DNA of 64,000 bases from Leuctra nigra. Lineage: Eukaryota > Arthropoda > Insecta > Plecoptera > Leuctridae. Shown one piece after another: positions 9,871-64,000 of the stretch (position 1 is its first letter; every line of letters starts with the position of its first letter). Position numbers and translations under genes: made by a program. The stretch spans positions 496,001 through 560,000 of the forward strand of contig OW203770.1 of the NCBI GenBank assembly GCA_934045905.1, written 5' to 3'. A model generated the notes under the pieces. It ran no database searches. It worked only from the letters and a program-made list of their open reading frames with translations, and was not told where the DNA came from.

Positions 9871-10010
9871 ATTCCTTCTAGAAAACGATGTCACGATATT
9901 TAGGGGCCATGATATTGGGTAGGTACCATTAGTTTAATCTTCAGTTTAGTTAAATACCTCTTCGGGAAATGTGGTTTATTACAATAATGTACTGCGGCAT
10001 ATCTTATAAA
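9871..10010. other. unique left flank of the satellite
   Basis: No repeat is recognised. The sequence joins the satellite at ATAAACTGCAGTCAATG without any degenerate transition monomers. Confidence 0.5.
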
Positions 10011-13000
10011 CTGCAGTCAATGTAGCCTGACTGATTCTTCATCGATCTACACTGCAGTCAATGTAGCCTGACTGATACTTCATCTATCTACACAGCAGTC
10101 AATGTAGCCTGACTGATTCTTCATCTATCTACACAGCAGTCAATGTAGCCTGACTGATTCTTCATCTATCTACACTGCAGTCATTGTAGCCTGACTGATT
10201 CTTCATCTATCTACACTGCAGTCAATGTAGCCTGACTGATTCTTCATCTATCTACACTGCAGTCAATGTAGCCTGACTGATTCTTCATCTATCTACACTG
10301 CAGTCAATGTAGCCTGACTGAACCTTCATCTATCTACACTGCAGTCAATGTAGCCTGACTGATTCTTCATCTATCTACACTGCAGTCAATGTAGCCTGAC
10401 TGATTCTTCATCTATCTACACAGCAGTCAATGTAGCCTGACTGATTCTTCATCGATCTACACTGCAGTCAATGTAGCCTGACTGATTCTTTATCTATCTA
10501 CACTGCAGTCAATGTAGCCTGACTGATTCTTCATCTATCTACACAGCAGTCCATGTAGCCTGACTGATTCTTCATCGATCTACACTGCAGTCAATGTAGC
10601 CTGACTGATTCTTCATCGATCTACACTGCAGTCAATGTAGCCTGACTGATTCTTCATCTATCTACACTGCGGTCAATGTAGCCTGACTGATTCTTCATCT
10701 ATCTACACTGCAGTCAATGTAGCCTGACTGATTCTTCATCTATCTACACTGCAGTCAATGTAGCCTGACTGATTCTTCATCTATCTACACTGCAGTCAAT
10801 GTAGCCTGACTGATTCTTCATCTATCTACACTGCAGTCAATGTAGCCTGACTGATTCTTCATCGATCTACACTGCAGTCAATGTAGCCTGACTGATTCTT
10901 CATCTATCTACACTGCAGTCAATGTAGCCTGACTGATTCTTCATCTATCTACACAGCAGTCAATGTAGCCTGACTGATTCTTCATCTATCTACACTGTAG
11001 TCAATGTAGCCTGACTGATTCTTCATCGATCTACACTGCAGTCAATGTAGCCTGACTGATTCTTCATCTATCTACACTGCAGTCAATGTAGCCTGACTGA
11101 TTCTTCATCGATCTACACTGCAGTCAATGTAGCCTGACGGATTCTTCATCTATCTACACTGCAGTCAATGTAGCCTGACTGATTCTTCATCTATCTACAC
11201 TGCAGTCAATGTAGCCTGACTGATTCTTCATCTATCTACACTGCAGTCAATGTAGCCTGACTGATTCTTCATCTATCTACACTGCGGTCAATGTAGCCTG
11301 ACTGATTCTTCATCTATCTACACTGCAGTCAATGTAGCCTGACTGATTCTTCATCTATCTACACTGCAGTCAATGTAGCCTGACTGATAATTCATCTATC
11401 TACACTGCAGTCAATGTAGCCTGACTGATTCTTCATCTATCTCCACTGCAGTCAATGTAGCCTGACTGATTCTTCATCTATCTACACTGCAGTCAATGTA
11501 GCCTGACTGATTCTTCATCTATCTACACTGCAGTCAATGTAGCCTGACTGATTCTTCATCTATCTACACTGCAGTCAATGTAGCCTGACTGATTCTTCAT
11601 CTATCTACACTGCAGTCATTGTAGCCTGACTGATTCTTCATCTATCTACACTGCAGTCAATGTAGCCTGACTGATTCTTCATCTATCTACACTGCAGTCA
11701 ATGTAGCCTGACTGATTCTTCATCGATCTACACTGCAGTCAATGTAGCCTGACTGATTCTTCATCTATCTACACTGCAGTCAATGTAGCCTGACTGATTC
11801 TTCATCTATCTACACTGCAGTCAATGTAGCCTGACTGATTCTTCATCGATCTACACTGCAGTCAATGTAGCCTGACTGATTCTTCATCTATCTACACTGC
11901 AGTCAATGTAGCCTGACTGATTCTTCATCTATCTACACTGCAGTCAATGTAGCCTGACTGATTCTTCATCTATCTACACTGCAGTCAATGTAGCCTGACT
12001 GATTCTTCATCTATCTACACTGCAGTCAATGTAGCCTGACTGATTCTTCATCTATCTACACTGCAGTCAATGTAGCCTGACTGATTCTTCATCTATCTAC
12101 ACTGCAGTCAACGTTGCCTGACTGATTCTTCATCGATCTACACTGCAGTCAATGTAGCTTGACTGATTCTTCATCGATCTACACTGCAGTCAATGTAGCC
12201 TGACTGATTCTTCATCTATCTACACTGCAGTCAATGTAGCCTGACTGATTCTTCATCTATCTACACAGCAGTCAATGTAGCCTGACTGATTCTTCATCTA
12301 TCTACACTGCAGTCAATGTAGCCTGACTGATTCTTCATCTATCTACACTGCAGTCAATGTAGCCTGACTGATTCTTCATCTATCTACACTGTAGTCAATG
12401 TAGCCTGACTGATTCTTCATCGATCTACACTGCAGTCAATGTAGCCTGACTGATTCTTCATCTATCTACACTGCAGTCAATGTAGCCTGACTGATTCTTC
12501 ATCTATCTACACTGCAGTCATTGTAGCCTGACTGATTCTTCATCTATCTACACTGCAGTCAATGTAGCCTGACTAATTCTTCATCTATCTACACTGCAGT
12601 CAATGTAGCCTGACTGATTCTTCATCGATCTACACTGCAGTCAATGTAGCCTGACTGATTCTTCATCTATCTACACTGCAGTCAATGTAGCCCGACTGAT
12701 TCTTCATCTATCTACACTGCAGTCAATGTAGCCTGACTGATTCTTCATCTATCTACACTGCAGTCAATGTAGCCTGACTGATTCTTCATCTATCTACACT
12801 GCAGTCAATGTAGCCTGACTGATTCTTCATCTATCTACACTGCAGTCAATGTAGCCTGACGGATTCTTCATCGATCTACACAGCAGTCAATGTAGCCTGA
12901 CTGATTCTTCATCTATCTACACTGCAGTCAATGTAGCCTGACTGATTCTTCATCTATCTACACTGCGGTCAATGTAGCCTGACTGATTCTTCATCTATCT

Positions 13001-16000
13001 ACACTGCAGTCAATGTAGCCTGACGGATTCTTCATCTATCTACACAGCAGTCAATGTAGCCTGACTGATTCTTCATCTATCTACACTGCAGTCAATGTAG
13101 CCTGACTGATTCTTCATCTATCTACACTGCAGTCAATGTAGCCTGACTGATTCTTCATCTATCTACACTGCAGTCAATGTAGCCTGACTGATTCTTCATC
13201 TATCTACACTGCAGTCAATGTAGCCTGACGGATTCTTCATCTATCTACACTGCAGTCAATGTAGCCTGGCGGATTCTTCATCTATCTACACTGCAGTCAA
13301 TGTAGCCTGACGGATTCTTCATCTATCTACACTGCAGTCAATGTAGCCTGACTGATTCTTCATCTATCTACACTGCAGTCAATGTAGCCTGACTGATTCT
13401 TCATCGATCTACACTGCAGTCAATGTAGCCTGACTGATTCTTCATCGATCTACACTGCAGTCAATGTAGCCTGACTGATTCTTCATCTATCTACACAGCA
13501 GTCAATGTAGCCTGACTGATTCTTCATCTATCTACACTGCAGTCAATGTAGCCTGACTGATTCTTCATCTATCTACACTGCAGTCAATGTAGCCTGACTG
13601 ATTCTTCATCTATCTACACTGCGGTCAATGTAGCCTGACTGATTCTTCATCTATCTACACTGCAGTCAATGTAGCCTGACTGATTCTTCATCTATCTACA
13701 CTGCAGTCAATGTAGCCTGACTGATTCTTCATCTATCTACACAGCAGTCAATGTAGCCTGACTGATTCTTCATCTATCTACACTGCAGTCAATGTAGCCT
13801 GACTGATTCTTCATCGATCTACACTGCAGTCAATGTAGCCTGACTGATTCTTCATCGATCTACACTGCAGTCAATGTAGCCTGACTGATTCTTCATCTAT
13901 CTACACTGCAGTCAATGTAGCCTGACTGATTCTTCATCTATCTACACAGCAGTCAATGTAGCCTGACTGATTCTTCATCTATCTACACTGCAGTCAATGT
14001 AGCCTGACTGATTCTTCATCGATCTACACTGCAGTCAATATAGCCTGACTGATTCTTCATCGATCTACACTGCAGTCAATGTAGCCTGACTGATTCTTCA
14101 TCTATCTACACTGCAGTCAATGTAGCCTGACTGATTCTTCATCTATCTACACTGCAGTCAATGTAGCCTGACTGATTCTTCATCTATCTACACAGCAGTC
14201 AATGTAGCCTGACTGATTCTTCATCTATCTACACTGCAGTCAATGTAGCCAGACTGATTCTTCATCGATCTACACTGCAGTCAATGTAGCCTGACTGATT
14301 CTTCATCGATCTACACTGCAGTCAATGTAGCCTGACTGATTCTTCATCTATCTACACTGCAGTCAATGTAGCCTGACTGATTCTTCATCGATCTACACTG
14401 CAGTCAATGTAGCCTGATTGATTCTTCATCTATCTACACTGCAGTCAATGTAGCCTGACTGATTCTTCATCTATCTACACTGCAGTCAATGTAGCCTGAC
14501 TGATTCTTCATCTATCTACACTGCAGTCAATGTAGCCTGACTAATTCTTCATCTATCTACACTGCAGTCAATGTAGCCTGACTGATTCTTCATCTATCTA
14601 CACTGCAGTCAACGTAGCCTGACTGATTCTTCATCTATCTACACTGCAGTCAATGTAGCCTGACTGATTCTTCATCTATCTACACTGCAGTCAATGTAGC
14701 CTGACTGATTCTTCATCGATCTACACTGCAGTCAATGTAGCCTGACTGATTCTTCATCGATCTACACTGCAGTCAATGTAGCCTGACTGATTCTTCATCT
14801 ATCTACACTGCGGTCAATGTAGCCTGACTGATTCTTCATCGATCTACACTGCAGTCAATGTAGCCTGACTGATTCTTCATCGATCTACACTGCAGTCAAT
14901 GTAGCCTGACTGATTCTTCATCTATCTACACTGCGGTCAATGTAGCCTGACTGATTCTTCATCGATCTACACTGCAGTCAATGTAGCCTGACTGATTCTT
15001 CATCTATCTACACTGCAGTCAATGTAGCCTGACGGATTCTTCATCTATCTACACTGCGGTCAATGTAGCCTGACTGATTCTTCATCTATCTACACAGCAG
15101 TCAATGTAGCCTGACTGATTCTTCATCTATCTACACTGCAGTCAATGTAGCCTGACTGATTCTTCATCTATCTACACTGCAGTCATCGTAGCCTGACTGA
15201 TTCTTCATCTATCTACACTGCAGTCAATGAAGCCTGACTGATTCTTCATCTATCTACACTGCAGTCAACGTAGCCTGACTGATTCTTCATCTATCTACAC
15301 TGCAGTCAATGTAGCCTGACTGATTCTTCATCTATCTACACTGCAGTCAACGTAGCCTGACTGATTCTTCATCTATCTACACTGCAGTCAATGTAGCCTG
15401 ACTGATTCTTCATCTATCTACACTGCAGTCAACGTAGCCTGACTGATTCTTCATCTATCTACACTGCAGTCAATGTAGCCTGACTGATTCTTCATCTATC
15501 TACACTGCGGTCAATGTAGCCTGACTGATTCTTCATCTATCTACACAGCAGTCAATGTAGCCTGACTGATTCTTCATCTATCTACACTGCAGTCAATGTA
15601 GCCTGACTGATTCTTCATCTATCTACACTGCAGTCAACGTAGCCTGACTGATTCTTCATCTATCTACACTGCAGTCAATGTAGCCTGACTAATTCTTCAT
15701 CTATCTACACTGCAGTCAATGTAGCCTGACTGATTATTCATCTATCTACACTGCAGTCAATGTAGCCTGACTGATTCTTCATCTATCTACACAGCAGTCA
15801 ATGTAGCCTGACTGATTCTTCATCTATCTACACAGCAGTCAATGTAGCCTGACTGATTCTTTATCTATCTACACTGCAGTCAATGTAGCCTGACTGATTC
15901 TTCATCTATCTACACTGCAGTCAATGTAGCCTGACTGATTCTTCATCTATCTACACTGCAGTCAACGTAGCCTGACTGATTCTTCATCTATCTACACTGC

Positions 16001-19000
16001 AGTCAATGTAGCCTGACTGATTCTTCATCTATCTACACTGCAGTCAATGTAGCCTGACTGATTCTTCATCTATCTACACTGCAGTCAATGTAGCCTGACT
16101 GATTCTTCATCGATCTACACTGCGGTCAATGTAGCCTGACTGATTCTTCATCTATCTACACTGCAGTCAATGTAGCCTGACTGATACTTCATCTATCTAC
16201 ACTGCAGTCAATGTAGCCTGACTGATTCTTCATCGATCTACACTGCAGTCAATGTAGCCTGACTGATTCTTCATCGATCTACACTGCAGTCAATGTAGCC
16301 TGACTGATTCTTCATCTATCTACACTGCAGTCAATGTAGCCTGACTGATTCTTCATCTATCTACACAGCAGTCAATGTAGCCTGACTGATTCTTCATCTA
16401 TCTACACAGCAGTCAATGTAGCCTGACTGATTCTTCATCTATCTACACTGCAGTCAATGTAGCCTGACTGATTCTTCATCTATCTACACTGCAGTCAATG
16501 TAGCCTGACTGATTCTTCATCTATCTACACTGCAGTCAACGTAGCCTGACTGATTCTTCATCTATCTACACTGCAGTCAATGTAGCCTGACTGATTCTTC
16601 ATCTATCTACACTGCAGTCAATGTAGCCTGACTGATTCTTCATCTATCTACACTGCAGTCAATGTAGCCTGACTGATTCTTCATCGATCTACACTGCGGT
16701 CTATGTAGCCTGACTGATTCTTCATCTATCTACACAGCAGTCAATGTAGCCTGACTGATTCTTCATCTATCTACACTGCAGTCAATGTAGCCTGACTGAT
16801 TCTTCATCGATCTACACTGCAGTCAATGTAGCCTGACTGATTCTTCATCGATCTACACTGCAGTCAATGTAGCCTGACTGATTCTTCATCGATCTACACT
16901 GCAGTCAATGTAGCCTGACTGATTCTTCATCTATCTACACTGCAGTCAATGTAGCCTGACTGATTCTTCATCTATGTACACTGCAGTCAATGTAGCCTGA
17001 CTGATTCTTCATCGATCTACACTGCAGTCAATGTAGCCTGACCGATTCTTCATCTATCTACACTGCAATCAATGTAGCCTGACTGATTCTTCATCTATCT
17101 ACACTGCAGTCAACGTAGCCTGACTGATTCTTCATCTATCTACACTGCAGTCAATGTAGCCTGACTGATTCTTTATCTATCTACACTGCAGTCAATGTAG
17201 CCTGACTGATTCTTCATCTATCTACACTGCAGTCAATGTAGCCTGACTGATTCTTCATCTATCTACACAGCAGTCATTGTAGCCTGACTGATTCTTCATC
17301 TATCTACACTGCAGTCAATGTAGCCTGACTGATTCTTCATCTATCTACACTGCAGTCAATGTAGCCTGACTGATTCATCATCTATCTACACTGCAGTCAA
17401 CGTAGCCTGACTGATTCTTCATCTATCTACACTGCAGTCAATGTAGCCTGACTGATTCTTCATCTATCTACACTGCAGTCAATGTAGCCTGACTGATTCT
17501 TCATCTATCTACACAGCAGTCAATGTAGCCTGACTGATTCTTCATCTATCTACACTGCAGTCAATGTAGCCTGACTGATTCTTCATCTATCTACACAGCA
17601 GTCAATGTAGCCTGACTGATTCTTCATCTATCTACACTGCAGTCAATGTAGCCTGACTGATTCTTCATCTAACTACACTGCAGTCAATGTAGCCTGACTG
17701 ATTCTTCATCTATCTACACAGCAGTCAATGTAGCCTGACTGATTCTTCATCGATCTACACTGCAGTCAATGTAGCCTGACTGATTCTTCATCTATCTACA
17801 CTGCAGTCAATGTAGCCTGACTGATTCTTCATCTATCTACACTGCAGTCAATGTAGCCTGACTGATTCTTCATCTATCTACACTGCAGTCAATGTAGCCT
17901 GACTGATTCTTCATCGATCTACACTGCGGTCAATGTAGCCTGACTGATTCTTCATCTATCTACACTGCAGTCAATGTAGCCTGACTGATTCTTCATCGAT
18001 CTACACTGCAGTCAATGTAGCCTGATTGATTCTTCATCTATCTACACTGCAGTCAATGTAGCCTGACTGATTCTTCATCTATCTACACTGCAGTCAATGT
18101 AGCCTGACTGATTCTTCATCTATCTACACTGCAGTCAATGTAGCCTGACTGATTCTTCATCTATCTACACAGCAGTCAATGTAGCCTGACTGATTCTTCA
18201 TCTATCTACACTGCAGTCAATGTAGCCTGACTGATTCTTCATCTATCTACACTGCAGTCAATGTAGCCTGACTGATTCTTCATCTATCTACACTGCAGTC
18301 AATGTAGCCTGACTGATTCTTCATCTATCTACACTGCAGTCAATGTAGCCTGACTGATTCTTCATCTATCTACACTGCAGTCAATGTAGCCTGACTGATT
18401 CTTCATCTATCTACACTGCGGTCAATGTAGCCTGACTGATTCTTCATCTATCTACACTGCAGTCAATGTAGCCTGACTGATTCTTCATCTATCTACACTG
18501 CAGTCAATGTAGCCTGACTGATTCTTCATCTATCTACACTGCAGTCAATGTAGCCTGACTGATTCTTCATCGATCTACACTGCAGTCAATGTAGCCTGAC
18601 TGATTCTTCATCTATCTACACTGCAGTCAATGTAGCCTGACTGATTCTTCATCTATCTACACTGCAGTCAATGTAGCCTGACTGATTCTTCATCTATCTA
18701 CACTGCAGTCAATGTAGCCTGACTGATTCTTCATCTATCTACACTGCAGTCAATGTAGCCTGACTGATTCTTCATCTATCTACACTGCAGTCAATGTAGC
18801 CTGACTGATTCTTCATCTATCTACACTGCAGTCAATGTAGCCTGACTGATTCTTCATCGATCTACACTGCAGTCAATGTAGCCTGACTGAACCTTCATCT
18901 ATCTACACTGCAGTCAATGTAGCCTGACTGATTCTTCATCTATCTACACTGCAGTCAATGTAGCCTGACTGATTCTTCATCTATCTACACTGCAGTCAAT

Positions 19001-19937
19001 GTAGCCTGACTGATTCTTCATCGATCTACACTGCAGTCAATGTAGCCTGACTGATTCTTCATCTATCTACACTGCAGTCAATGTAGCCTGACTTATTCTT
19101 CATCTATCTACACAGCAGTCAATGTAGCCTGACTGATTCTTCATCTATCTACACTGCAGTCAATGTAGCCTGACGGATTCTTCATCTATCTACACAGCAG
19201 TCAATGTAGCCTGACTGATTCTTCATCTATCTACACTGCAGTCGATGTAGCCTGACTGATTCTTCATCGATCTACACTGCGGTCTATGTAGCCTGACTGA
19301 TTCTTCATCTATCTACACTGCAGTCAATGTAGCCTGACGGATTCTTCATCTATCTACACTGCAGTTAATGTAGCCTGACGGATTCTTTATCGATCTACAC
19401 TGCGGTCTATGTAGCCTGACTGATTCTTCATCTATCTACACAGCAGTCAATGTAGCCTGACTGATTCTTCATCGATCTACACTGCAGTCAATGTAGCCTG
19501 ACTGATTCTTCATCTATCTACACTGCAGTCAATGTAGCCTGACTGATTCTTCATCGATCTACACTGCAGTCAATGTAGCCTGACTGATTCTTCATCTATC
19601 TACACTGCAGTCAATGTAGCCTGACTGATTCTTCATCTATCTACACAGCAGTCAATGTAGCCTGACTGATTCTTCATCGATCTACACTGCGGTCAATGTA
19701 GCCTGACTGATTCTTCATCTATCTACACTGCAGTCAATGTAGCCTGACTGATTCTTCATCTATCTACACTGCAGTCAACGTAGCCTGACTGATTCTTCAT
19801 CTATCTACACTGCAGTCAATGTAGCCTGACTGATTCTTCATCGATCTACACTGCAGTCAATGTAGCCTGACTGATTCTTCATCGATCTACACTGCGGTCT
19901 ATGTAGCCTGACTGATTCTTCATCTATCTACACTGCA
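10011..19937. repeat. 41-bp satellite array, about 242 copies
   Basis: The array is uninterrupted and head to tail, with a constant 41-bp period (for example CTGCAG at 10216 and 10257). Most monomers hold a PstI site (CTGCAG) and the hairpin CAGTCA-ATGTAGCC-TGACTG. A competing stem, CTACA with TGTAG, spans the same bases. Variation is confined to a few positions: CATCTATC or CATCGATC, CTGCAG or CTGCGG, CACTGC or CACAGC, GACTG or GACGG, and AATG or AACG before TAGCC. No reading frame is open across it. The right end breaks off inside a monomer at ACTGCAATTTTGACG. I see no inserted element anywhere in the 9.9 kb. Confidence 0.97.
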
Positions 19938-47638: not shown

Positions 47639-47842
47639 CAGAGGTAACCAGCGAAATAAAAACGGAATAAAATAATAATAAAAATAAAAAACTCTGACTC
47701 GCAAGAGTTGTATGGCAACCCAACCTGCTGATTAAGAATGCGTCCCGATAGCTTAATGGTTAAAGCATAGGGCCGGAAACCCGAAGGATCTGAGTTCGAT
47801 TCCCAGTCGGGGTGCGCGTTTTTATTTCGCAGGTAACCTCTG
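47639..47842. mobile_element. foldback unit enclosing a tRNA-like sequence
   Basis: CAGAGGTAACC-GCGAAATAAAAACG at 47639-47663 and its complement at 47817-47842 are near-perfect inverted repeats (one or two mismatches) around a 150-bp interior. Part of the interior is an AATAAAATAATAATAA run, and most of the rest is the tRNA-like sequence. It lies inside H7. Confidence 0.7.
47742..47813 (+). tRNA. tRNA-like cloverleaf, probably pseudogene or SINE head
   Basis: The 72 bases fold as a full cloverleaf: acceptor GTCCCGA with TCGGGGT (7 pairs, two of them G-U), D stem GCTT/AAGC, anticodon stem TAGGG/CCCGA (one mismatch), 5-base variable loop, and T arm CTGAG-TTCGATT-CCCAG (one mismatch). The anticodon loop CCGGAAA would read GGA, but position 33 is C instead of the invariant U, and a serine tRNA should have a long variable arm. 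I therefore read it as a tRNA-derived sequence with intact A and B boxes rather than a working tRNA. Confidence 0.6.
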
Positions 47843-49115: not shown

Positions 49116-49692
49116 ATTTTGTAACAAAACCAATAAGACCATTGGGTGTATATAATAAAGCCATACACCAAAGGTAATTTCCATATCTTATAAATTGAAA
49201 TGTCTTTACAGTTACAGTATTTTCATCGAAGGAAGATTTTTTATTGTTTCCATATCAAAACAAAATTAAGTACATTATTGATATTGTGGTAGCTTACTTC
49301 TGGATGTGTGATGTTGCGTCAGTTGAAAATAACTAAAACACGAGAACACTGCACGGCATTACCTTCATACTCAAGGCCTATACTAATGATTTTGAATTTA
49401 TTCATACCTGATAATTCATGTTCTCACTTATCATTGCATTCTTTTAGTTTTTTGATATTGTCATTTTATTATTCCTCAGTCGAATGGTTTACTTTGCTTG
49501 TTTTTAAGGATCACTATACCGCAATGTTTTATATGCTCGTGGACAAAATAAAGATACATACTTGAACTAGAACGTAATGAATGCTATTTGATACTAATGT
49601 TGTATCAACATTAGTGATTGTTCCCTTGATTGCTACAGTGCTGTCCTTTTGTCATTCCTTGTGCTGTACACGGATATACTTCCTGATGTTTT
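49116..49692. other. intergenic upstream of LINE
   Basis: AT-rich. ACTAATGTTG-TAT-CAACATTAGT (49593-49615) is a perfect short hairpin. No coding exon is supported. Confidence 0.4.
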
Positions 49693-51150
49693 ATGTTTAT
49701 ACATTCTAGCGGTTTAGATGGCATACCAGTACCATTTATTAAAAAATGTATTGTAAACATTAGTAATCCATTAAATGAGATATTTAACTCTAGCCTTGAA
49801 CACGGAATATTTCCAGATAAACTAAAAATCTCAAAAATAATACCAATACACAAAAAAGGAGAAAAGAATAAAGTGGGAAATTATCGCCCTATATCCCTAC
49901 TTCCAGCAGTATCAAAAATTTTAGAAAAAATAATACACAACAGACTCACATCATTCTTGGAACAAGAAAATCAACTAACTAACAAACAGAACGGATTTAG
50001 AAAAGGGAAATCAACAAATAATACAATAAGTAACTTCTTAGATAAAGTAATCAAAGGGATAAATAATAAAGACCATGTGATGGGAATTTTCTGTGACCTC
50101 ACAAAGGCGTTCGACTGCATTCACCACAACACACTACTGAGAAAGCTAGAGAGATACGGCATAAGAGGCATAGCTCATAAACTTCTTGAATCTTATCTAT
50201 CAAACAGAATCCAATATGTCGAAATAACTGCAAATGACGCACACAATAAAGAATCAAAATTTTTATCTGAGCCACTCCTGGTAACTACAGGAGTACCTCA
50301 AGGATCAATCCTGGGCCCACTTCTTTTCATAATTTTCATTAATGATCTACCAAACACACTAGAAAATGCCGAACTATTTGCAGATGACACTAGTATAATA
50401 GTCAAGGCAAATAGCAAAGAGAATCTCAAGTTAAATGCAGAAAAGGTTGTGGAAGATGCGACAAAATGGTTCCAGGATAACAAACTTGTGCTAAATTCAA
50501 CCAAAACTAACTTCATCCTTTTTAACAACAAAAACTACGACACTGACAGCTTCGAAACAATTAGTAACAACATTGACAACTCAGAAATAAAGAAAGTAGA
50601 TAATACAAAATTTCTCGGCATCACTATTGATAGAAAACTAAACTGGAATCGCCATTGTGAAACTCTAAAAAATAAATTAAGTTCTGCGTGCTTTGCCCTT
50701 AAAGTAGTAAGACAAACAACAAATTTGAAAACATCAAAAATTGCCTACTACGCAAATTTTGAGTCACACCTGCGATACGCAATAGAACACTGTGGAAATT
50801 CAAGTCAGGCTAGCAAAATATTTAAACTTCAAAAACGAGCAATCAGAACAATCTTAGGGCTTAAGAATAAAAAGGGTACTTTCATAAAGCCACACTGCAA
50901 GAGTCACTTTATAAAACACAAAATCCTAACAACACACAGCCTGTACATATACGAATGCACACTCAATACTAAGAAGAACATACAACAACATACACTCAAC
51001 GAACATATACACTCACACGACACAAGAATAAAATCACACGTTCACACAACAAACTATAGAACAAAACAAACACAAAAAAACTCAAAATATATCAAATGTA
51101 AGCTGTACAACAAACTACCTGAAAACATAAAAAAATATTACAGATATTAA
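49693..51150 (+). CDS. LINE reverse transcriptase (N-terminally truncated)
   Basis: The 485-residue frame opens inside the RT domain: SSGLDGIPVPFIKK (residues 5-18) is the usual entry to the fingers. Then come NYRPISLLP (63-71), NGFRKGKST (100-108), motif A FCDLTKAFD (133-141, catalytic D135), motif B TTGVPQGSILGPLLF (198-212), motif C FADD (229-232, both catalytic Asp present), the NKLVLNSTKT motif D region and KFLGITID motif E, followed by a thumb-like helical part. It copies its own RNA by target-primed reverse transcription in intact relatives. No stop or frameshift interrupts it, so this copy is fairly young. The apparent ATG is simply the first one inside the truncated frame. Assignment to the Jockey/CR1 side of the LINE tree is by motif wording only. 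Confidence 0.9.
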   Translation: MFIHSSGLDGIPVPFIKKCIVNISNPLNEIFNSSLEHGIFPDKLKISKIIPIHKKGEKNKVGNYRPISLLPAVSKILEKIIHNRLTSFLEQENQLTNKQNGFRKGKSTNNTISNFLDKVIKGINNKDHVMGIFCDLTKAFDCIHHNTLLRKLERYGIRGIAHKLLESYLSNRIQYVEITANDAHNKESKFLSEPLLVTTGVPQGSILGPLLFIIFINDLPNTLENAELFADDTSIIVKANSKENLKLNAEKVVEDATKWFQDNKLVLNSTKTNFILFNNKNYDTDSFETISNNIDNSEIKKVDNTKFLGITIDRKLNWNRHCETLKNKLSSACFALKVVRQTTNLKTSKIAYYANFESHLRYAIEHCGNSSQASKIFKLQKRAIRTILGLKNKKGTFIKPHCKSHFIKHKILTTHSLYIYECTLNTKKNIQQHTLNEHIHSHDTRIKSHVHTTNYRTKQTQKNSKYIKCKLYNKLPENIKKYYRY

Positions 51151-56972: not shown

Positions 56973-58847
56973 ATGGAGAAAAACATAGAATCTTGCTGCC
57001 GGTTGGACCAACTTCCAGGGTGGAGCAGGTTGCCCCTCGACCTGCAACGCGACATGTTACGTTTCAAGGCCTGTGACTCTCAAGGTTTCTTGGCTGCAAT
57101 GCGTCAAATAGTAGCAGAACGAGCAGCGTCCACGACGTCTACTGTACTATCAGTTCAGGACACAACCGCCACGCCTTCTCCACTTCGACGTCAAGGGGAC
57201 TCCGTCGAAGGTTCCGAGTTGCAGTGCATGGACGCCGTCGAGGCTTCCAAGGTGCAGTGCATGGACTCCGTCGAGGCTTCCAAGGTGCAGTGCATGGACG
57301 CCGTCGAGGCTTCCAAGGTGCAGTGTATGGACTCCGTCGAGGCTTCCAAGGTGCAGTGCATGGACGCCGTCGAGGCTTCCATGGTGCAGTGCATGGACTC
57401 CGTCGAGGCTTCCAAGGTGCAATGCATGGACTTCGTCGAGGCTTCCAAGGTGCAGGGCACTGACGCCGTCGAGGCTTCCAAGGTGCAGTGCACGGACGCC
57501 GTCGAGGCTTCCAAGGTGCAGTGCACGGACGCCGTCGAGGCTTCCAAGGTGCAGTGTATGGACGCCGTCGAGGCTTCCAAGGTGCAGGGCACGGACGCCG
57601 TCGAGGCTTCCAAGGTGCAGTGACCGGACGCCGTCGAGGCTTCCAAGGTGCAGGGCACGGACGCCGTCGAGGCTTCCAAGGTGCAGTGCACGGACGCCGT
57701 CGAGGCTTCCAAGGTGCAGTGTATGGACTCCGTCGAGGCTTCCAAGGTGCAGTGCATGGACGCCGTCGAGGCTTCCATGGTGCAGTGCATGGACTCCGTC
57801 GAGGCTTCCAAGGTGCAATGCATGGACTTCGTCGAGGCTTCCAAGGTGCAGGGCACTGACGCCGTCGAGGCTTCCAAGGTGCAGTGCACGGACGCCGTCG
57901 AGGCTTCCAAGGTGCAATGCATGGACTCCGTCGAGGCTGCCAAGGTGCAGGGCACGGACGCCGTCGAGGCTTCCAAGGTGCGGGGCACGGACGCCGTCGA
58001 GGCTTCCAAGGTGCAGTGCATGGACTCCGTCGAGACTTCCAAGGTGCAGTGCATGGACGCCGTCGAGGCTTTCAAGGTGCAATGCATGGACTCCGTCGAG
58101 GCTTCCAAGGTGCAGGGCACGGACGCCGTCGAGGCTTCCAAGGTGCAGTGCATGGACGCCGTCGAGGCTGCCATGGTGCAGGGCACGGACGCCGTCGAGG
58201 CTTCCAAGGTGCAGTGCATGGACGCCGTCGAGGCTTCCAAGGTGCAGTGCATGGACTCCGTCGAGGCTTCCAAGGTGCAGTGCATGGACTCCGTCAAGGC
58301 TTCCAAGGTGCAGTGCATGGACGCCGTCGAGGCTTCCAAGTTGCAATGCATGGACTCCGTCGAGGCTTCCAAGGTGCAGTGCATGGACGCCGTCGAGGCT
58401 TCCATGGTGCAGGGCACGGACGCCGTCGAGGCTTCCAAGGTGCAGTGCATGGACGCCGTCGAGGCTTCCAAGGTGCAGTGCATGGACTCCGTCGAGGCTT
58501 CCAAGGTGCAGTGCATGGACGCCGTCGAGGCTTCCAAGGTGCAGTGCATGGAATCCGTCAAAGATTCGAAGCGACGCGAAGCGACAGCAAAATGTCCATA
58601 CACCGCGACACAGGTTCGCCAGTACGCAGCTTCACTACGCTGCAGGTACTCAGCGTCGCCAGGCACCACCGCACCGCAAAGGCATTGCAAGCGGTCTGGC
58701 ATCAAAGAGGAATGGTCCGTTCCGTATTGTCCGGGCCATAGGACGCAACGTCTACGAGCTCGGCGATCCGAAGTCTGGCAAGTCAGCGGGCCGGGCAAAT
58801 GTAGCCCAATTGTTGCCGGTCATTCCAGTTCTCGCATGGGTGCGTAG
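56973..58847 (+). CDS. repeat-bearing ORF of the LTR element (one in-frame stop)
   Basis: From ATG 56973 the frame gives a unique N-terminal part of about 80 residues with RLDQLPGWSRLPLDLQRDML and a helical FLAAMRQIVAERAAS segment, which may be all that remains of a Gag-like domain. It then has about 41 copies of an 11-residue unit (VQCMDAVEASK and variants), and a basic tail of about 95 residues with scattered Cys and His but no clear zinc knuckle. A TGA at 57621-57623 breaks the frame in the array, in a unit where TGCATGGAC became TGACCGGAC. The same frame continues afterwards to the stop at 58845. It is either dead or read through. I recognise no enzyme. Confidence 0.5.
57213..58560. repeat. 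33-bp minisatellite, about 41 copies
   Basis: The unit contains GCAGTGCATGGACGCCGTCG then AGGCTTCCAAGGT. Variants alternate GACGCC with GACTCC, TGCATG with GGCACG or TGCACG, and CCAAG with CCATG. The block 57335-57500 is repeated almost exactly at 57715-57900, so multi-unit segments have duplicated. Since 33 is a multiple of 3 and the unit lacks stops in several frames, long open frames exist on both strands. Confidence 0.95.
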
Positions 58848-61626: not shown

Positions 61627-62275
61627 GGCCATTGCATATCACGTGACTTTATTTCTCTACATCCGATCAAAAGAAATAGTTACCTATGAGTACATACCTT
61701 ACATCGTTCATGCTGAGTAATCCAAGGTGATTTATGAAGGAAATTCCTGCATACTGGAGCTTATCAATATTTTCAGTCAATAATATTTATTTTTGCAGTG
61801 GTTCAATAAATAAAAACAACACAAATATCGTGTATACGTACGCCTGTGAAGACTGTCAAAACCAAGTGCTGTTATTTTAAATATTTCATTCATAATAGTG
61901 GATATAATTAATATTTCAACATTTCGTTGGAAAGATGAAGAAAGAGCGCATGTTTTGTTGGCAAAATTGTGTCAGGTTTGTGATGCATATCTGCCCTTTT
62001 ATTAGATTAAAGTTTGCTGTTCTTGGCAACTCGTAGGATTTCCTTAAACTTCAGGTCTTGATTTGAGAATATTTAGGTGCAAGGAAGTAAAATCATCTAA
62101 TATGTTATTTTCGCAGTTCTTTTCTGAGTAGATAAGTTCCAACAGATGTGTCCTAACTTATCTGATGAGTGAGAAGTATTTGCTAAACTGAACCCTTCCA
62201 AATGAAAATGTGTAGGTAGCTTTTTGGTTGAAAAGTCACGTGATATGCAGCCACCCTAACATCTCCTGCTTTCAG
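61627..62275 (+). other. end of host gene intron
   Basis: AT-rich with no repeat recognised. It ends in a good branch/pyrimidine region and acceptor, CATCTCCTGCTTTCAG (62260-62275). Confidence 0.55.
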
Positions 62276-64000
62276 TTGCCAGGCAACGAAGGTCCGCGGA
62301 CGCACACCAGGAGGGCTGGAGTCGCCAACACTAAAGGTCAGGACTACGAGGTCAAGATGGCCGCCGTGACCTTCTTGCGAGCCATCAACACTGGCCGTGA
62401 CTTCCAACTGGCCGGTAACGTCGACGACGCAGGCGCATTCGACGACATCGTGTTTCAGTACTTAGCAGACCATGGCGTAGTACACACCTGTTACATGCAA
62501 CTTAAACATAAGGACCCTAACAAGGTGATCAAGGAAAAAGTTAACAAGGACAAAGTAAATAAGGACTCGTTGGTGAGTGTAAAGGGGGATTTCAGTCTGA
62601 GCAAATATTTTAAATCCTTCATGGATATTAAGCAACATTGTGAGGAGAAAACAGGTTTAATTAACAGTGACTTTGGCTCGTGTGAGTTTGTGATATTTAC
62701 GAATGCTGAGTTGGTGTCTTGGAAGGGGAATCTGGAGACACGTGACCTGCCAAGCCCGGTCGACGAGTACATCAAGCTGAATGAGGTTCAAACCAACTTC
62801 ACAGAAGATGTTGTCAATAGCTTGTACATAGACTTGAAGAAGGAAGAAGAGAAGCAGAACAAGGTATTAGAGAAGCAGAAGAAGCCGCCGTCACATTTGA
62901 TAAGTTCGAGTGAAGCAGACGTAAAAGACTTCCTGGAAAGAGTCAAGTTGTTCACCGGACAGCCGAGTGAAGACCAACTGGATGACGTCATCAAGGAAGA
63001 ACTGCAAGAGTATTGCAAGAAAGTAGGCGAAGAGTACATTGACCTAATGTATTCAAATTTCACTGACAAATTGAAGACGTGGTGTCACAGCAATGTTGGA
63101 ATTATTCTAGAGAAGAAAAGTTCTATCCTAAGTGACGCTTTGAAGCAGGCTAAAGCCGAGCAACGGTTGTTGGGAAATAAAACACTTGTTGAGGCTTTGG
63201 TTCTGGAGCAAGTGCAGAAGTTCAAGTTGAAGAACTTGAAGTTCCTGGAGAGTTCAACAGTAAGTCTGAAGAGCGCATGCGCTGATCAACATTCCCTTGT
63301 CAATGTCGTCGCCGAAAAATCCGTAAGAATAACCACGAACAAAGTCCTGCAGTTTCTCGAGGCTCGGAATAAACCCTTCATTGTCATGGAAACAGAATGT
63401 CTGCTGAAACATCGTCACTCTGTGATGACGTCATGGAGACAAGGCAAGAAACATCTGCTAGTTGTTGTCAGCGAAGTAACAGCCAATCAGGAGCTGGATG
63501 GAATCTGTAGAGAGATAACACAAGTACTTCATGAGAATAAAGATAAGCGGATCGTGCTGGTGTCGCCACCTGGGGACTCGTTTGCAAGACAGCTTGAAGA
63601 GAAGATGGGAGCCAACTTCACACTCATTCAAGATTCATTCAACTTGGGACAACTACATCAAGAATCTATCGACTTCATTCTAGAGAAGAAAGTCACCTTC
63701 CAAGGTCATTCAACAACATTTGACATGATACTTGGAAGTGACTTACATTTAATTTCAACTGAGCTGAAAGATGTGCTTGAAACCATCATAGCAAGCGAAT
63801 CCCTCGTCATTGGAGCCAATCTGCAGGAAGACATTGAGTATTACGTGCCGCGTACAATGCAATGCAAGAACATTGTGAGTACTGAAATATTTAAAGACAG
63901 GAATTTTGCAGGAAGAATAATAATCCACGGCGCTACATGGGCAGATGTTCATCATTTAGTTCCCAATCATGAAGAAATAATAATGAAGAAGTTTCAGCAG
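62276..64000 (+). CDS. nuclease-fold-like protein, large exon, runs off the window
   Basis: The frame set by the acceptor at 62275 is open for 575 codons to the last base, which chance cannot explain. Codon use is visibly GC-richer than the flanks. With the 12 residues of exon 1, numbering gives: K32-G-x-D-Y-E37 starting a helix (VKMAAVTFLRAI), FDD (67-69), a strand and QLKHK (87-91), then DFSLSKYF (117-124) and FVIFTN (150-155). E37, D68/D69 and Q87-x-K89 in this order and spacing fit a PD-(D/E)XK (restriction-endonuclease-fold) core. Cap4/DUF4297-type effectors have a comparable E...D...QxK pattern (from memory). Residues 176-370 are charged and mostly helical. Segments such as KHLLVVVSEV and KRIVLVSPPG look like core beta strands of an alpha/beta domain. 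No Walker A is seen up to residue 587. Related insect proteins, as I recall, continue into a NACHT-like NTPase and repeats. Function is inferred, not shown. Confidence 0.75.
   Translation, partial: MPGNEGPRTHTRRAGVANTKGQDYEVKMAAVTFLRAINTGRDFQLAGNVDDAGAFDDIVFQYLADHGVVHTCYMQLKHKDPNKVIKEKVNKDKVNKDSLVSVKGDFSLSKYFKSFMDIKQHCEEKTGLINSDFGSCEFVIFTNAELVSWKGNLETRDLPSPVDEYIKLNEVQTNFTEDVVNSLYIDLKKEEEKQNKVLEKQKKPPSHLISSSEADVKDFLERVKLFTGQPSEDQLDDVIKEELQEYCKKVGEEYIDLMYSNFTDKLKTWCHSNVGIILEKKSSILSDALKQAKAEQRLLGNKTLVEALVLEQVQKFKLKNLKFLESSTVSLKSACADQHSLVNVVAEKSVRITTNKVLQFLEARNKPFIVMETECLLKHRHSVMTSWRQGKKHLLVVVSEVTANQELDGICREITQVLHENKDKRIVLVSPPGDSFARQLEEKMGANFTLIQDSFNLGQLHQESIDFILEKKVTFQGHSTTFDMILGSDLHLISTELKDVLETIIASESLVIGANLQEDIEYYVPRTMQCKNIVSTEIFKDRNFAGRIIIHGATWADVHHLVPNHEEIIMKKFQQ

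Follow-up and report, generated by a model that had tools for sequence, protein, structure and literature searches.

At the 3' end of a 64,000-nucleotide stretch of the Leuctra nigra genome, an open reading frame of 575 codons enters without a start codon and leaves without a stop, raising the question of what kind of protein it encodes. This stretch, which we call the window, corresponds to positions 496001-560000 of the 30.8 Mb contig C9 (OW203770.1) in an assembly of 536 Mb and 144 contigs (GCA_934045905.1). We consider it probable that the frame belongs to a large insect family of NLR-like, or STAND, sensors in which oligomerisation activates a nuclease. Family members carry a Cap4-like nuclease domain followed by a helical linker, a P-loop-like domain that lacks a Walker A motif, a NACHT domain with a winged-helix motif, and ankyrin repeats.

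The main exon starts on the forward strand directly behind a splice acceptor (tttcag, 62270..62275; tgctttcag/TTG in context, with the AG at 62274-62275), and its first 575 codons occupy 62276..64000 with no stop up to the window end. The stop-to-stop frame begins at 62216. When the genome beyond the window was included, the frame (P0003) reached 1258 codons, and the exon continues to about C9:561936, where there is a consensus donor (AG/GTGAGT) near the end of the frame that is common to the paralogues L010 and L014. A CAG or TAG acceptor-like site was observed by eye at similar spacing ahead of the conserved domain in 20 of 20 paralogues inspected. We did not find a first exon with a start codon for the window gene, and its start codon must be placed in an upstream exon. 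The first-pass annotation had described a host-gene exon with neither start nor stop in the window, and both parts of that description hold: the frame is open behind a splice acceptor, and the 30.8 Mb contig, the splice sites in common with paralogues and the insect relatives described below identify a host gene. On the same three observations we reject contamination and insertion of bacterial DNA as origins of the gene. When the window frame was used in scans, which detect close relatives only, they revealed no relative in plasmids or in IMG/VR viral contigs and, in prokaryote genomes, 15 pattern matches of which none was confirmed.

The L. nigra genome contains at least 84 matches to the window frame at E <= 0.001, in approximately 75 separate places; this count is a lower bound, with 76 of 190 candidates scored. 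Among the matches listed, the closest full-length paralogue is 76% identical. Internal stops are absent from 78 of the 84 rows, and open frames reach 2571 codons. Thus, the open frame is far beyond chance. Outside this species, a protein database contained 46 proteins matching residues 33-1030 of P0003, from Periplaneta, Blattella, Anabrus, Timema, Wyeomyia, Culex, Armigeres, Anopheles, Leptinotarsa, Gonioctena, and Mythimna. Most are labelled 'uncharacterized' or 'hypothetical', and one beetle entry is named dynein axonemal assembly factor 10. Among named relatives of full length, the nearest come from cockroaches, at 27-30% identity. When a Mythimna relative was used as a second query, 87 proteins were recovered, mainly from moths and frequently labelled 'NACHT domain-containing'. 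The first-pass annotation had proposed a search for the N-terminus in arthropod proteomes; among the database proteins recovered here, the N-terminal domain occurs in several insect orders. It was seen in every listed source genus except Anabrus, spanning cockroaches, stick insects, beetles, moths, and mosquitoes.

We estimated the ratio of nonsynonymous to synonymous substitution (dN/dS) in ten paralogue pairs by simple counting, which saturates when dS is high. The ratio was 0.18-0.52 for the nuclease domain, 0.29-0.57 for the middle region, 0.14-0.41 for NACHT, and 0.26-0.75 for the first ankyrin part. The paralogues are under purifying selection. These data bear on the possibility that the window gene, like most other family members, has no function and is either a decaying pseudogene or cargo of a mobile element. 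Such an origin would fit the internal stops in 6 of 84 rows and the failure to find a start exon, but the 78 stop-free rows, dN/dS values that stay under 1 for every domain in the ten pairs and the relatives across several insect orders make it highly improbable.

The N-terminal domain has a predicted Cap4-like PD-(D/E)XK nuclease fold with a core at residues 21-143 (62336..62704, forward strand). In an AlphaFold2 (AF2) model the first ~130 residues form a helix, three strands, a helix and a strand, the alpha-beta-beta-beta-alpha-beta core of the PD-(D/E)XK superfamily, and E25, D57, Q75, and K77 occupy the PD-(D/E)XK positions. Structural comparison of this model with VIA-align gave modest Z scores, headed by the anti-phage nucleases LmuAB (7.0), Hachiman (5.5), and Cap4 (5.3). 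When we compared a profile of the domain with 177,635 PDB sequences, the top match was Cap4 (7yib, E 0.04). With hhalign, alignment of the domain to ten Cap4 N-domains scored 94.7%, whereas the best of 30 shuffles scored 4.6%, the reversed profile 0.23%, and the other half of Cap4 0.70%. One control fell short: aligned to the family's own middle region, the N-domain set scored 49.8% over 33 columns, which we think reflects N-domain rows that extend into the middle region. None of 27 family members matched the nuclease models of Pfam, and single Pfam matches of N-domains (best E 0.0038) look like chance. Direct look-ups of the domain in PADLOC, NCBIfam, Pfam, and, by single sequence, PDB returned nothing useful, and Foldseek with the model found no match at E <= 0.001 in PDB or among viral models. 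Because the profile homology is to the Cap4 N-domain and no curated Pfam model matches, the domain is, as judged from sequence profiles and a predicted fold, a distant relative of the Cap4/DUF4297 nucleases rather than a filed member of that group. The nuclease-like N-terminus proposed in the first-pass annotation is therefore borne out at the level of predicted fold and modest structural matches.

The residues predicted to form the catalytic site are strongly conserved. Counted in the frame from 62276, these are E25 in helix 1 (62348..62350), D57, which opens strand 2 and is predicted to bind metal (62444..62446), and the (D/E/Q)xK motif Q75-L76-K77 at the end of strand 3 (62498..62506), all on the forward strand. 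They lie within the segments F55-D56-D57 and Q75-L76-K77-H78-K79, and FVIFTN follows at 138-143. The residues named in the first-pass annotation are thus all present, but its numbers are 12 too high for this frame. In 40 sampled paralogues from L. nigra the invariant columns were G21, E25, K27, F43, N48, D57, Q75, K77, and H78 (P0001 numbers). We then have two sets that include other species. The first, of 42 rows (15 from L. nigra and 27 of the 46 database proteins), had D57 in 42/42, Q75 in 41/42, K77 and H78 each in 40/42, and D56 in 39/42, and among 36 rows position 25 was E in 30 and Q in 5; this set is biased, having been chosen with a motif pattern that demanded D57, with ten wrong or N-truncated rows dropped and one protein, P0047, restored by hand. 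A fairer test came from 85 new proteins from the Mythimna-relative search, 79 of which contained the domain by profile, although one protein from this group (P0045) was part of that profile. Here D57 and Q75 were found in 79/79, H78 in 77/79, K77 in 75/79, and E25 in 72/79 with Q in 4 more. Ranked by conservation among 150 columns, D57 and Q75 were second and third and N143 was 69th. Relatives therefore keep these acidic and lysine residues at the canonical places with few exceptions, as the first-pass annotation had required of a nuclease.

Some copies are exceptions, and they bear on what the domain does. P0047 is degenerate and has lost the motif, and the first nuclease unit of L075 has Q-L-I, with K77 lost. 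PD-(D/E)XK folds are at times re-used without catalysis. Such degenerate copies would suit a domain that is a nucleic-acid-binding or dimerisation module and signals through partners without cutting. A binding module would hardly need D57 and Q75 in 79/79, K77 in 75/79, and E25 in 72/79 of proteins that were not picked by motif, and we regard it as unlikely. L075 (455-5038 on contig C10) is also unusual in its layout, being a single 1528-codon frame with two nuclease-middle units and a NACHT domain between them.

Between the nuclease domain and NACHT is a middle region (62888..64000, forward strand) that, in an AF2 model of 36 paralogues, consists of a helical part and then an alpha/beta part, leading on to NACHT beyond the window. 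The alpha/beta part (63176..63823, forward strand) has a predicted P-loop-NTPase-like fold without a Walker A motif, which was absent from all 36 rows. This extra element was unforeseen in the first-pass annotation. We asked whether it is a duplicated NACHT domain and rejected this, as a profile comparison scored 0.38%, inside the range of shuffles. Because of that result, the P-loop-like assignment rests on the predicted fold. A PDB search with the middle-domain profile returned nothing relevant.

Downstream, P0003 has a Pfam NACHT match at residues 660-817 (30.4 bits; gathering cut-off 26.7) and an ankyrin match at 1035-1106. Of three paralogues, L011 and L027 also exceed the NACHT cut-off (27.7 and 27.9 bits) and have 9 and 13 Ank_2 stretches, and L028 has NACHT at 22.5 bits, under the cut-off, and 4 Ank_2 stretches. 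The NTPase and sensor domain that the first-pass annotation expected farther along the gene are thus found. Neither leucine-rich repeats nor a SAVED match was detected in these four proteins. Within NACHT, the invariant columns include EPGM.K, LD..DE, GIP, and RVFAE, which we take to be Walker A, Walker B (LDGxDE), GxP, and a FLHRVFAEYFAA-type winged-helix motif. The domain therefore has the Walker A and Walker B motifs of NACHT NTPases. PG.GK was present in 19 of 20 L. nigra open reading frames and in 36 of 46 and 64 of 85 proteins in the two sets of relatives, which include some fragments that lack it. In L026, which otherwise has a long open frame, PGMRK replaces PGMGK at this P-loop. In a comparison of the NACHT profile with PDB, Rho factors ranked top (E 0.023) and NOD2-like chains, including 5irm, presumably NOD2, appeared only at 0.8. 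Ankyrin repeats precede the nuclease domain (residues ~28-109) in P0111, P0114 (Manduca), and P0122 (Culex).

The family differs from known systems in its combination of parts. Animal NLRs resemble it in that their NACHT domain also contains the Walker A, Walker B, GxP, and winged-helix motifs described above, but the insect proteins have a nuclease-like N-terminus where a death fold is usual, ankyrin repeats where leucine-rich repeats are usual, and the extra middle domain. The LmuA nuclease of Lamassu and the HamA nuclease of Hachiman work with separate partner proteins, whereas NACHT is fused here. Cap4 of CBASS (PDB 7yib, 6vm5), of the DUF4297 group, is annotated with a SAVED cyclic-nucleotide sensor, whereas the insect family has NACHT and ankyrin repeats. 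The first-pass annotation had called the protein Avs/NACHT-type. NACHT is present and the architecture resembles that of Avs, but this is a resemblance only and homology of the NTPase to Avs is not established: the row matching Avs (Avs3 8dgc, Avs4 8dgf) was tied with many AAA+ proteins, the matched insect part lacks Walker A and has a separate NACHT after it, the insect C-terminus is made of ankyrin repeats, and the nuclease of Avs3 gave a Z of only 3.8 against the insect N-domain. Judged by its domains, the family stands apart from strict NLRs (no leucine-rich repeats) and from CBASS Cap4 (no SAVED) and is built like a nuclease-armed STAND receptor. Passages of a 2024 survey describe arthropod NLRs without an N-terminal effector domain (PMC11508797). 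Our literature searches, whose coverage did not extend to bioRxiv preprints and most subscription papers, found no published description of the family, and none appears in the passages seen of PMC8195603, PMC12370184, PMC3712931, PMC11249213, PMC11508797, PMC7308585, PMC9815663, PMC7159879, and PMC11291478.

We also compared the window gene (L009) with 19 paralogues along its length. The closest paralogue over most of the nuclease domain was L011 (C9, 1.33 Mb); over most of the middle region it was L010 (C9, 0.15 Mb), with up to 97% of bases identical, and over NACHT and the first ankyrin part it was L014 (C9, 0.31 Mb), mostly at 96-99%. Since the nearest paralogue differs from segment to segment, segments have been exchanged among paralogues of one chromosome arm, which suggests gene conversion or unequal exchange. 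Four close members, including the window gene, sit 0.15-1.33 Mb from one end of C9.

Immune receptors typically show expansion within a lineage, numerous paralogues, exchange of segments and rapidly changing sensor parts. The presence of these features here, with dN/dS of 0.26-0.75 in the ankyrin parts, bears on whether the protein, rather than being a receptor for pathogens, is a nuclease-bearing NTPase with a different task, for example in controlling transposons or germ-line or chromosomal DNA. Insect genomes contain many transposons and the window itself has a reverse-transcriptase frame, as such a duty might predict; the features listed above weaken this alternative rather than eliminate it, and we consider it rather improbable.

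How might a nuclease-armed sensor of this type operate? Its domain content suggests cleavage, a substrate, ligand binding and an immune role. The ankyrin repeats, possibly aided by the middle domain, would hold the receptor inactive and bind the ligand. Ligand binding would release NACHT-driven oligomerisation, permitted by ATP binding at NACHT, and this would gather the N-terminal nuclease domains into active dimers. The dimers could cut invading DNA, or the cell's own, killing an infected cell. Assembly-activated nucleases of the Cap4/DUF4297 type are documented in passages of PMC11291478: Avs3 tetramerises when it binds a viral protein, which gathers its nuclease domains, and DUF4297-HerA breaks down the DNA of phage and host alike. 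In its fullest form, which we offer tentatively and think somewhat less probable than not, the proposal is of widespread, expanded Avs-like insect receptors in which NACHT, oligomerising once the ankyrin repeats have bound a ligand, turns on a Cap4-type DNase in a DNA-destroying response resembling abortive infection, a second STAND-like domain that cannot bind ATP acts as a regulator, and receptors are remade by exchange of nuclease, middle, and NACHT-ankyrin segments. The architecture suggests that insects may have an intracellular defence armed with a nuclease. Such a large family, maintained by selection and with an N-terminus that matches a bacterial anti-phage nuclease, would offer insects a plausible one-protein receptor that both senses and cuts, and would extend the list of bacterial defence modules re-used by animals. 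Relatives occur in insects that can be reared, including cockroaches, moths, mosquitoes, and beetles.

The window contains several other features. A satellite array with a 41-base unit (242 copies, 97% matches) occupies 10010-19937, and a 33-base tandem repeat of 41 copies at 57197-58559 has long open frames on both strands, one of which is Mucin-like by Pfam (62.7 bits). The reverse-transcriptase frame is at 49687-51150 (RVT_1, 129 bits) and therefore marks a retroelement. A tRNA gene was identified by Rfam at 47742-47814 (52.5 bits).
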